A model generated the notes under the pieces. The model was given only the letters and a program-made list of their open reading frames with translations. It searched no databases and was not told where the DNA came from. Positions 4,141 through 57,606 of a DNA stretch of 64,000 nucleotides are shown here, piece by piece. The first letter of the stretch is position 1; every line of letters begins with the position of its first letter. The stretch is from contig JACPYM010000033.1 of NCBI GenBank assembly GCA_016196035.1, positions 62,001 to 126,000 on the forward strand, written 5' to 3'. The stretch comes from Acidobacteriota bacterium (GTDB taxonomy: Bacteria > Acidobacteriota > Blastocatellia > RBC074). A program made the translations under genes and the position numbers.

Positions 4141-4855
4141 CCGTAGCCTGGCGCAAAAACACCGCGATCCATTGCATGATGACGGCTTCATCGGTCGGCT
4201 GGCCCAGGCTGTCCAGCGCCTGTTGCGCACGTTCATCGCCAATGCGCGCGCGGCGGTCGTGCAAGAGGGCGCGGCTGTAATCCGCCGTGAATTCGGGGTG
4301 CGCCTGGATGCCAAGCATGTGTGGGGCAGCGCGAAACATGGCGACGGGGCAATGGGCGCTGCGGCCGAGCACGACGGCGTGGGCGGGCAGTTCCAACACT
4401 TGATCTTGGTGCATGTATTGCAACCAGCATTGGCGTTGCGGCGGCTGCATCCATATTTCAGGGGACTCGGCTTGCGTGATTTCGCAGGCGTGCACACCCA
4501 CACCCCAGCCGCTCGGAGCTTTGGCTACGCGGCCACCGAGTGCTTCGGCCAGCATCTGGTGCCCGAAGCAGATGCCGACATACGGCTTGCCCGCCTCGTG
4601 TATCTGGCGCACAAACGCTTTCAGCCGGTGAATCCACGGCACATCGTCATAGACCGAAAAGCGCGAACCGGTCGTGATGTAGGCCGCGCATTCATTCAAC
4701 GCCGCAGGCCATTCGTCAGCGCACACGGCAAACGGCGTCAGCGTGATTTCCGGCGCATGGCGTTGGAACAGCGCGCCAAACATTGCTGGATAATCGCCCG
4801 CGCTGTGCTGGAAGCGCTCGGCAACGTGGTCGCATTGGAGCAAGCCGATGTTCAT
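4127..4855 (-). CDS. Class I glutamine amidotransferase-like protein
   Basis: 242 residues from the ATG at 4855 (MNIGLLQCDHV); the frame extends a few codons further upstream without a better start. The fold is a class I GATase: nucleophile C96 in GICFGHQ, and the His/Glu pair of the triad in AHPEF (H186, E188). Such stand-alone proteins resemble the GMP-synthase amidotransferase subunit and hydrolyse glutamine or gamma-glutamyl compounds; the real substrate cannot be read from sequence. No synthetase partner is adjacent. The last residues (ATVRGA) and the stop lie inside an inverted repeat (4119-4140), so the native C-terminus may have been slightly changed. Confidence 0.85.
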   Translation of the reverse strand: MNIGLLQCDHVAERFQHSAGDYPAMFGALFQRHAPEITLTPFAVCADEWPAALNECAAYITTGSRFSVYDDVPWIHRLKAFVRQIHEAGKPYVGICFGHQMLAEALGGRVAKAPSGWGVGVHACEITQAESPEIWMQPPQRQCWLQYMHQDQVLELPAHAVVLGRSAHCPVAMFRAAPHMLGIQAHPEFTADYSRALLHDRRARIGDERAQQALDSLGQPTDEAVIMQWIAVFLRQATVRGA

Positions 4856-54148: not shown

Positions 54149-55159
54149 ATGATTGTTGTCATGCAGGAAAACGCCACCGAAGACCAGATCACGAATGTCG
54201 TGGATCGGCTGGTGAGTCTGGGTTTCGACATTCACCGTTCGACCGGCGAACGCTACACGTTGCTGGGTGCGGTGGGGGCGCAAATCGCCGATCAGCGCGA
54301 TCTGGAATTGCTGGACGGCGTGCGCGAAGTCGTGCGCATCAGTGCGCCTTACAAACTGGCCTCGCGCGCTTTCAGGCCCGAAGGCACCAAGATCAAGATC
54401 AAAGACGTCGTCATTGGCGGCGAACAAGTCATCATGATGGCCGGGCCGTGCACGCTGGAAAATCGCGAACAAATCGAAGCTGTCGCGGCCTCCGTGGCTT
54501 CGCAAGGGGTTCAAGTGATGCGCGGCGGCGCTTTCAAGCCGCGCACCTCGCCGTATAGCTTTCAGGGTCTGGGCGAACCTGGGTTGAAGATGATGCGCGA
54601 AGTGGCCGATAAACACGGGCTGCTGACCGTGTCGGAGATTATGGAATCACCACAGATTCCGATGTTCATCAAATACGTAGACATCCTGCAAATCGGCGCG
54701 CGCAACATGCAAAATTTCAATCTGCTGAAAGACCTGTCCAAGCTGAACAAGCCGATTCTGCTCAAACGTGGCCCGGCGGCGACGATTGAAGAGACGCTGC
54801 TTTCTGCCGAATACCTCATGTCCGGCGGCAACCACGAAGTCATCATCTGCGAACGCGGCATCAAGACCTTTGAGACGTACACGCGCAACACGCTCGACAT
54901 CTCGGCGATCCCGGTCATCAAGAAACTCTCGCATTTGCCCGTCGTGGTTGATCCTTCGCACGGCACGGGCCGCCGTGACAAGGTGCCGCCGATGGCGCGC
55001 GCGGCGGTGGCGGCAGGCGCGGACGGCTTGTTGATCGAAGTGCATAACGAACCAGAGCGCGCGCTGTGCGATGGCGCGCAGTCGTTGTTGCCGGAACAGT
55101 TTGAAAAGCTGATGGTGCAGTTACGGATGATTGCGCCGGCGGTTGAGCGGAAAATGTAA
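54149..55159 (+). CDS. aroF: 3-deoxy-7-phosphoheptulonate (DAHP) synthase, type I-beta
   Basis: 336 residues. N-terminal ~70 residues are a ferredoxin-like regulatory domain (MIVVMQENATEDQITNVVDRLVSLGFDIH), as in the Thermotoga enzyme, where Tyr and Phe bind. The barrel has MMAGPCTLENREQI, GGAFKPRTSPYSFQG, LLKRGPAATIEE, ICERGIKTFETYTRNTLDI, VVVDPSHGTGRRD and LIEVHNEPERALCDG. It catalyses the first step of the shikimate pathway. The enzymes for shikimate steps 2-7 are not in this window. Confidence 0.96.
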   Translation: MIVVMQENATEDQITNVVDRLVSLGFDIHRSTGERYTLLGAVGAQIADQRDLELLDGVREVVRISAPYKLASRAFRPEGTKIKIKDVVIGGEQVIMMAGPCTLENREQIEAVAASVASQGVQVMRGGAFKPRTSPYSFQGLGEPGLKMMREVADKHGLLTVSEIMESPQIPMFIKYVDILQIGARNMQNFNLLKDLSKLNKPILLKRGPAATIEETLLSAEYLMSGGNHEVIICERGIKTFETYTRNTLDISAIPVIKKLSHLPVVVDPSHGTGRRDKVPPMARAAVAAGADGLLIEVHNEPERALCDGAQSLLPEQFEKLMVQLRMIAPAVERKM

Positions 55160-55186
55160 AGAACAGTGGCGGGTTGTATAGACTTC

Positions 55187-55417
55187 AAGAAAAAGAATTG
55201 CCGTAGCAAGCTCCAACGGAGCATCAGCCAACAGCCTGGGGTGCACAGCCCCAGGAAACACATTGAGTCGTTGTGCGAAGCCCTGAAAGGGCGGCAGCCA
55301 TCGGCTTGGCTGTCGCCCTTTCAGGGTTTCGCACAACCATTTGCACGTTCCCCCAGGGCTTCACCCTGGGCTGTTGGCTGGTCGTCCCTTTGGGACTTTT
55401 CGGAAATTCTTTTTCTT
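55187..55417. repeat. Composite nested inverted-repeat element
   Basis: 231 bp. Ends AAGAAAAAGAATT (55187-55199) and AATTCTTTTTCTT (55405-55417). Within, in mirror order, are GCTCCAACGGAGC, CAGCCAACAGCCTGGG.., TTGTGCGAAGCCCTGAAAGGGCG.. and their complements, so the whole folds into one long branched stem. Relatives at 133-352 and 4898-5193. It interrupts the aromatic gene line after the DAHP synthase. Confidence 0.85.
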
Positions 55418-55474
55418 AAAAACTATAGAAATAATTAGGCAGTCTTACGACCTGAATCTCCGGAGGTTACTCGC

Positions 55475-55708
55475 GTGGATGAGTTAACTGGAAATCTTGG
55501 ACGCGTGCTTGCTGCGATGCTGTTGCTGGTATTCGCCGGAATTGGCGTCGCCCATGTTCTGAACCCCGACCGGTTTATCGCGCGATCTGGGGTACGAAAG
55601 GGTGGCGAATTGCTGACAGCGTGGAATCGGCTCGGGTTTCGCATCTTTGGAGCGTTCTTCACAGGTGGGGCCCTATATATGCTTTACCATGTCATTTCGG
55701 ATCATTAA
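55475..55708 (+). CDS. Small two-helix membrane protein, cassette-like
   Basis: 77 residues from a GTG at 55475, backed by CGGAGGTTACTCGC just before it. Two hydrophobic helices: VLAAMLLLVFAGIGVAHVL and FGAFFTGGALYMLYHVI, joined by LNPDRFIARSGVRKGGELLTAWNRLGFRI, giving a basic loop. Small membrane proteins of this type are familiar from integron gene cassettes and similar mobile units. It is followed at 55791-55891 by an attC-like repeat and preceded by ATTAGGC at 55434-55440, which fits insertion as a cassette. The function is unknown. Confidence 0.7.
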   Translation: MDELTGNLGRVLAAMLLLVFAGIGVAHVLNPDRFIARSGVRKGGELLTAWNRLGFRIFGAFFTGGALYMLYHVISDH

Positions 55709-55790
55709 TGTTTATGAGTGTGATCACAGCAGCTTCGTGCAAGAAAGATTCCTTGACGCTGCTGACTGGAACTCGCTTCAGCCTGCCGCT

Positions 55791-55891
55791 GCCTAACCCA
55801 ACGCTGCAACCGACGAGCGGCGCATTCGGGTTGCGGCTGCTGGCGAGTTTGGCTCACGCGCCGCTCGCGATTGAGCTTTGAGCCGTTGTGC
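55791..55891 (+). other. attC-like imperfect inverted repeat (integron cassette recombination site)
   Basis: Begins GCCTAAC (55791-55797, fits RYYYAAC) and ends GTTGTGC (55885-55891, GTTRRRY with one mismatch). The arms pair over CAACCGACGAGCGGCGC / complement (perfect core 55814-55823 with 55858-55867) with unpaired bases, as in attC hairpins, and the length (101 bp) fits. It lies 82 bp after the small membrane gene. No integrase gene is in the window. Confidence 0.55.
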
Positions 55892-55948: not shown

Positions 55949-56674
55949 ATGTTTCCCAAAGTCGTAACACAAACCTCTGAACCTTTTCCGGCAAGCATGT
56001 CACCCGTGCCGCTGCTGGAAGACGGCGCATACTTGACGCGCGCTGAATTTGAACGGCGTTATGAAGCCATGCCCAGCCACCTCAAAGCCGAATTGATCGA
56101 AGGGAGAGTGTGTATGTCGTCACCCGTGCGCCGGAAAAATCACAGCATCCCTGACAATCATCTCAGCACCTGGCTTGGTGTTTATGCCGCCGTTACGCCG
56201 GGTGTGCTTGCCGGTAACAATGGCACGGTGCGGTTGGATGAGTGGAATGAAGTGCAGCCCGACTCGGATTTGCGCATTGATGAAACGCGCGGCGGCCAGG
56301 CCCTCGTCAGCAGCGACGATTATCTGGAAGGCGCGCCCGAACTCGTCATCGAAATTGCCGCCAGCAGTGCGCCGCGTGATTTACGCGAAAAGTTTACGGT
56401 CTATCAACGCAACGGCGTGCGCGAATACATCGTCTGGGCGGTTGCCGACGGCCAAATCCATTGGTTCAGTTTGGAAGCCGGAACATTCACACCTTTGAAT
56501 CCCGATCCCAATGGTTACTTGTGCAGCCGTGTGTTTCCCGGCCTTTGGCTGGATGTGCAGGCTTTGTTACGTGGTGAGATGGCGCAGGTGTTGCAGGTTT
56601 TGCAGCAAGGCTTGGCCGCGCCCGAACACGCAGAATTTATCACTGCTTTAGCCCGCCGCCACACGCCGCTGTAG
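55949..56674 (+). CDS. Uma2 family (DUF820) putative endonuclease
   Basis: 241 residues from ATG 55949, after GAAAGGCGGTGACC; upstream codons in frame cross the attC-like site. Core: LTRAEFERRYEAMPSHLKAELIEGRVCMSSP, VQPDSDLRIDET, EGAPELVIEIAASSAPRDLREKFTVYQRNGVREYIVW, with D, E-x-E-like and Lys residues of the PD-(D/E)xK pattern. Third Uma2 gene in the window, 17 bp before tyrA. It differs clearly from the copies at 8772 and 53157, so it is not a recent local duplicate. Confidence 0.88.
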   Translation: MFPKVVTQTSEPFPASMSPVPLLEDGAYLTRAEFERRYEAMPSHLKAELIEGRVCMSSPVRRKNHSIPDNHLSTWLGVYAAVTPGVLAGNNGTVRLDEWNEVQPDSDLRIDETRGGQALVSSDDYLEGAPELVIEIAASSAPRDLREKFTVYQRNGVREYIVWAVADGQIHWFSLEAGTFTPLNPDPNGYLCSRVFPGLWLDVQALLRGEMAQVLQVLQQGLAAPEHAEFITALARRHTPL

Positions 56675-56691: not shown

Positions 56692-57606
56692 ATGCTCAAT
56701 CTCCATCACATTGCCATCGTTGGTTGCGGCTTGCTGGGCGGATCGTTTGCGCTCGCCTTGCGTCGCGCCGGATTCAACGGGCGCATCACAGCCTGCGGCG
56801 GCAAGCGTTCGCCGCAATTGGCGATTGAACGCGGTGTGGCCGATGCGCTGGAAGAAAGCTTCGAGCGTGGCGAGGTGTGCGAGGCTGATTTGATTTATCT
56901 GGCCGCACCCATCGGCGGCATCATTGATTTTTTGAAAACGCGTGGCGCACAAATCAAGCCTGGCGCACTGGTCACCGACGCCGGCAGTACTAAGGTTGAA
57001 ATCTGTCGGACGGCACGCGCCGCGTTGCCCCCCGGCGTGCATTTCATCGGCGGTCACCCAATGGCGGGCAGCGAACAGACGGGCGTTGAGTATGCGCGGG
57101 CTGATTTGTTTGATCGCGCAACTTACGCGCTCGTGACTGAACAGGGAACTGACGAGGCTGCGTTCGAGCAGTTCAAAGCTATCGTCGAAGCTGTCGGCGC
57201 GCGCGCCCTACCGGTCGAAGCCGAAGCGCACGATGCCGCTGTCGCATTGATTAGCCATCTGCCGCAATTGCTGGCGAGTACGCTGGCGACGTTGCTCGAT
57301 GCTGAGCACGATGGCCCAACTGGGCGAAATGCCGCCGAGCGCGAACTAGCGCAACGTCTGGCCGCAACTGGTTGGCGTGATATGACGCGGCTGGCCGGCA
57401 GTTCGTGGAGCATGTGGCGCGACATCTGTCTGACGAATCAGCCGAACCTGTCGGTTGCCTTGGGCACGATGATTAGCGAGTTGCAGGCGCTGAAAGAGAC
57501 ACTGGATGGGCGCGATTTCAATGCGGCGCGTGAATTGTTTGCGGCGGCCAATCGCTCGGTCGAAGAGCAGCGCGCCTTGCATTACGGACGGTTTGAAAAG
57601 TTGTGA
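56692..57606 (+). CDS. tyrA: Prephenate dehydrogenase
   Basis: 304 residues. NAD-binding IAIVGCGLLGGSFALALRR, then LIYLAAPIGGIIDFL, DAGSTKVEICRTA and FIGGHPMAGSEQTGVEYA, the active-site stretch with the conserved His. The helical C-terminal dimer domain includes AVALISHLPQLLASTL, and RLAGSSWSMWRDICLTNQ follows. No ACT domain, so regulation is probably at the DAHP synthase. It makes 4-hydroxyphenylpyruvate on the way to tyrosine. tyrS follows 16 bp later. Confidence 0.95.
   Translation: MLNLHHIAIVGCGLLGGSFALALRRAGFNGRITACGGKRSPQLAIERGVADALEESFERGEVCEADLIYLAAPIGGIIDFLKTRGAQIKPGALVTDAGSTKVEICRTARAALPPGVHFIGGHPMAGSEQTGVEYARADLFDRATYALVTEQGTDEAAFEQFKAIVEAVGARALPVEAEAHDAAVALISHLPQLLASTLATLLDAEHDGPTGRNAAERELAQRLAATGWRDMTRLAGSSWSMWRDICLTNQPNLSVALGTMISELQALKETLDGRDFNAARELFAAANRSVEEQRALHYGRFEKL

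Follow-up and report, generated by a model that had tools for sequence, protein, structure and literature searches.

What is the small open reading frame (ORF) that lies, with a long inverted repeat behind it, between the DAHP synthase and prephenate dehydrogenase (tyrA) genes of an acidobacterial genome, and how did it come to be there? We analyzed a stretch of 64,000 nucleotides around this locus, referred to as the window herein, for which the initial annotation had proposed an integron-type gene cassette consisting of an ORF plus attC between two crossover points. We found that positions 55435-55885 are indeed one integron gene cassette, with an ORF for a 77-residue, two-helix membrane protein followed by an attC site, and that the attC model, the extrahelical bases and the left border agree on this layout (Table 1). 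Very probably, this one cassette was integrated at a chromosomal site that is not an attI.

Table 1 Features of the cassette locus in window coordinates. A slash marks the crossover point.
Feature	Position	Strand	Basis or remark
DAHP synthase (left flank)	54149-55159	+	Pfam DAHP_synth_1, E 3e-79
MITE-like inverted repeat	55177-55428	+	~250 bp, 6 bp left of the cassette border
Left junction ATTAGGC	55434-55440	+	first base from the target, TTAGGC from the cassette
Whole cassette	55435-55885	+	451 bp, crossover A/TTAGGC to crossover G/TTGTGC; read from sequence
Ribosome-binding site GGAGG	55462-55466	+	from sequence
Cassette ORF	55475-55708	+	GTG start, 77 aa, two hydrophobic helices (read by eye)
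attC site	55791-55891	+	R'' 55791-55797, R' 55885-55891; model R1
Extrahelical bases G 55806 and A 55813	55806-55813	+	left arm, 6 nt apart; arm alignment
Right junction GTTGTGC	55885-55891	+	G from the cassette, TTGTGC from the target; one mismatch to GTTRRRY
Uma2-family gene	55949-56674	+	between cassette and tyrA; Pfam Uma2, E 4e-26
tyrA, prephenate dehydrogenase (right flank)	56692-57606	+	Pfam PDH_N, E 9e-33

The imperfect inverted repeat of 101 bp that had been described behind the ORF is present, with GCCTAAC as R'' and GTTGTGC as R'. Scoring with an attC model had been set as a test beforehand, and for it we used R1, a covariance model made from 39 oriented attC sites with this genome left out; for training, sites were drawn from class 1 plasmid integrons, from a plasmid of Kovacikia and from arrays in further Blastocatellia genomes. 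The repeat gave a clear, correctly oriented match of 26.9 bits (E 1.6e-4, plus strand, model positions 1-91 of 91), and the second-best match in the 64-kb window reached 13.7 bits. Control DNA from the same genome (two 100-kb samples, filters off) gave a top score of 15.4 bits. An integron gene cassette is defined by an attC site that a model recognizes and that has R'' and R' cores with L boxes that match, and this site is of that kind; it scores below most array attC sites and its right spacer is 2 bases longer. Upon alignment of the two arms, we found the extrahelical G and A of the left arm, which read T-N6-C once the bottom strand is folded; the centroid fold of that strand shows both bulges. 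Their spacing is canonical and their register is shared by 30+ attC sites of integrons of class 1 and of other Blastocatellia, a pattern likewise characteristic of a cassette. Sites of the T-N6-C type are recombined efficiently by IntI1 (PMC3053210). Because the arms are asymmetric, the attC can be given a direction, and it is that of the ORF, as cassettes require. The predicted folding energies were -25.3 kcal/mol for the bottom strand versus -22.4 kcal/mol for the top, with z-scores of -1.85 and -0.38, values by which thermodynamic folding on its own does not decide the matter. An Rfam search of the region returned sub-threshold matches only, all of them in the MITE-like repeat; Rfam has no attC family.

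The borders of the cassette could be read from its own R''. The ATTAGGC said to lie left of the ORF is there, and its TTAGGC at 55435 is the sole plus-strand copy in the window (two copies are found on the minus strand) and the only occurrence between the DAHP synthase gene and the attC. Since R'' is GCCTAAC, the circular form of the cassette is expected to carry GTTAGGC. The left border TTAGGC is the core predicted in this way, and a circle closed at the cassette borders would regain GTTAGGC, the exact complement of R'' and a GTTRRRY core of the kind that a gene cassette has. From the left border to the GTG start there are 40 bp, so that the ORF, co-oriented with the attC, follows a short 5' leader as is usual in cassettes. 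A cassette of this kind would be excised and integrated by an integron integrase (IntI).

The ORF, for which a membrane product with two helices and a ribosome site of its own had been claimed, was found as described. It shows weak similarity to DUF4345 (Pfam E 0.0032, under the gathering score), and its occurrence is sporadic: it was found in 1 of 98 genomes in the relatives set, being absent from all 97 relatives searched, and in 2 of 396 genomes across the phylum. Two distant homologues were identified, one in a single Sulfotelmatobacter MAG (63%) and one in another acidobacterium (48%); no attC was found beside either, and a search of plasmids and viral contigs for relatives of the ORF gave none. 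A search for a promoter-like site for the ORF likewise found none, and we infer that it is expressed, if at all, via read-through of the operon.

These results bear on the reading in which the ORF is a small operon gene of vertical inheritance and the hairpin behind it is unrelated, being a terminator, a REP or a chance inverted repeat. As such a gene would, the ORF runs in the direction of the operon and is preceded by a good ribosome site, but none of the 97 relatives carries it and both the attC model and the extrahelical bases fit an attC. The repeat also has no further copy in the genome, which led us to reject a REP, a MITE or any dispersed repeat family, and it has neither a T run nor a terminator-like site, which led us to reject a terminator. 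Given the absence of the ORF from relatives and the attC model match, this reading is largely refuted and we consider it very improbable. The initial annotation had named, as evidence against a cassette, an attC search without a match together with the ORF in fixed order in relatives; neither was seen.

The cassette had been placed between DAHP synthase and tyrA, which holds, but the interval also contains a MITE-like repeat and a Uma2-family gene. The latter lies outside the cassette and is missing from this position in relatives; we rejected it as a second cassette since no attC follows it. The MITE-like family has ~20 copies in the genome, most of them spanning 38-289 of the query, and its ends read TATAG...CTATA (TATAGACTTCAAGAAAAAGAATT...AATTCTTTTTCTTAAAAACTATA). 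That this repeat ends just 6 bp from the cassette border would suit a composite element in which both arrived jointly. However, the ~20 copies elsewhere are without this cassette and the cassette has precise borders of its own, by which we rejected a joint arrival and judge it extremely improbable. The repeat is a separate insertion, tied to the cassette by proximity alone.

Two further features of this repeat family were observed. It holds sub-threshold matches to the Acido-Lenti-1 RNA (RF01687, 28.7 bits versus a threshold of 37), which suggests that certain members of this RNA family may belong to MITE-like repeats. Another copy (locus L047, C11:68340-68592) has flanks that are reverse complementary to one another, as if it had been inserted into a hairpin loop.

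We compared the flanking DNA and neighboring proteins with those of 29-38 relatives. DAHP synthase and tyrA are 18-113 bp apart in three of them (G003, G006 and G008), and in two others (G007 and G010) they are separated by other genes, unrelated to the cassette. This adjacency, or the presence of other genes, implies that the ancestral order was without the cassette. The initial annotation had further expected an empty site joining the sequence left of 55437 to that right of 55885. Gene order without the cassette was seen, but the junction itself could not be found, as the flanking DNA of the 29-38 relatives was too diverged to give an alignable junction.

The initial annotation had described the cassette as one without an integrase, which is not correct for the genome as a whole (9.6 Mb, 139 contigs): it encodes one clear integron integrase, an intact IntI on another contig, C40, that scored 459.6 bits against a cut-off of 265. 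At least four attC sites lie on the 5' side of its gene, each after ORFs on the same strand, and an attI-like GTTCGAC precedes the first cassette (read by eye). Between this attI-like core and the integrase gene (4667-4760 of locus L010), we observed several short direct repeats around TATTAGGCAT, which could be putative integrase-binding or regulatory repeats.

Elsewhere in the genome, the model found single attC sites at C57:79510 and C113:39020, a pair at C57:114317 and 115124, and another pair near the end of C9. The site at C57:79510-79599 (locus L166) belongs to a second solitary cassette, in which the stop codon of the ORF falls within R'' and a GTTCGGC lies 30 bp upstream of the ORF start; the 123-aa product resembles a VOC/glyoxalase fold (by eye). 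On one side of it lies an aldolase-like gene, on the other a gene whose N-terminus is signal-like. Our whole-genome search scored 150 of 7174 candidates with the attC model, and a density scan with default filters covered 1.24 Mb. In ~0.8 Mb of contigs that had not been selected for attC matches nothing scored above 17.3 bits, and cassettes are therefore few and not densely spread. The default-filter scan overlooked the 26.9-bit attC of the window itself, so that weak sites elsewhere may be under-counted. Among the Blastocatellia genomes, we observed many attC sites in G011, G017, G019, G020, G036 and others, often alone on separate contigs, and in G019 they are spread over about a dozen contigs. 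It may be common in this class for cassettes to be dispersed.

No attI, intI or second attC is found at the site of the cassette, the integrase of the genome being on C40, and this is the setting of an attG insertion. In such an event, a circular cassette would have entered the cell or left an array by excision, its attC would have folded, as the bottom strand, into a hairpin bound by an integron integrase, probably that on C40, and a single-strand exchange would have taken place at A/TTGTGC between DAHP synthase and tyrA. This target, which results when the two flanks are joined, differs from GTTRRRY at two positions and is without the G that a GTT or GNT core has at the crossover; a GNT core has been reported for secondary sites (PMC10127599). 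Both junctions had been said to fit GTTRRRY with one mismatch, as expected of a secondary site. The count is correct for the right junction, but with two mismatches in the target that expectation is weaker than it was put. The target is the weakest point of the insertion account, which has to assume that it was an odd one or that a base changed after the insertion. The attC score below those of most array sites, the longer right spacer and the lack of an attC beside the two homologues also weigh against the account. Because no true empty site was found and A/TTGTGC matches GTTRRRY poorly, the insertion route is one that we can only infer.

The same weakness lends something to the reading in which the cassette is the last remnant of an array (a CALIN) that once stood or was rearranged here and has lost its other cassettes, attI and integrase. 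Its left core is without the G and its R' is degenerate, paired cassettes exist at 114-115 kb of C57 and on C9, and loss and rearrangement have been put forward, alongside insertion off target, as origins of CALINs (Cury et al., cited in PMC8618304). However, the window contains no integrase fragment and no second attC, the relatives examined have no integron at the DAHP synthase-tyrA junction, and the MITE-like repeat occupies the interval to the left of the cassette. We therefore regard a remnant array as improbable. Insertion at a secondary (attG-type) site is the most likely route, and the integrase on C40 its probable agent.

Most of what is known about the off-target insertion of cassettes comes from the laboratory and from resistance plasmids. 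The window holds a natural chromosomal example in Acidobacteriota, of a kind already known as the single-cassette CALIN: a solitary cassette in a biosynthetic operon of an environmental acidobacterium, with both borders readable, in a host that has kept its integrase intact together with an array, and whose genome has at least one further solitary cassette. Single-attC sites fall below the usual threshold of two and are probably under-counted. The lineage could serve to measure the rate at which cassettes leave an integron in nature. As a speculation that we hold doubtful at present, the IntI of Blastocatellia might regularly scatter single cassettes into operons, where host promoters would express them and the whole chromosome would act as a cassette platform.

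Acidobacteriota have already been reported as integron carriers (PMC8618304), and the present locus resembles a CALIN in that an attC-bearing cassette stands apart from an integrase. It differs in having one attC only, so that it falls short of the two or more attC sites without integrase that IntegronFinder 2.0 takes as its default, and in that the host keeps an active-looking integron elsewhere; single-attC cases are conceded to be possible true positives (PMC9024848). With the attG insertions of Loot et al. (2024, Nat Microbiol 9:228), which according to PMC12444791 were experimental and made in E. coli, it shares a single chromosomal cassette at a site that is neither attI nor attC. In contrast to those experiments, the cassette of the window occurs naturally, in Acidobacteriota, and its core match is weak. 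Lastly, PMC10127599 cites two reports of the aadB cassette at secondary sites, that of Recchia and Hall (1995) for RSF1010 and that of Segal and Elisha (1997) for a plasmid of Acinetobacter. These cases, as described there, are like ours in the precise insertion of a single cassette at a secondary site, but they are resistance cassettes borne on plasmids, whereas the cassette of the window lies in chromosomal-looking DNA and encodes a membrane protein.
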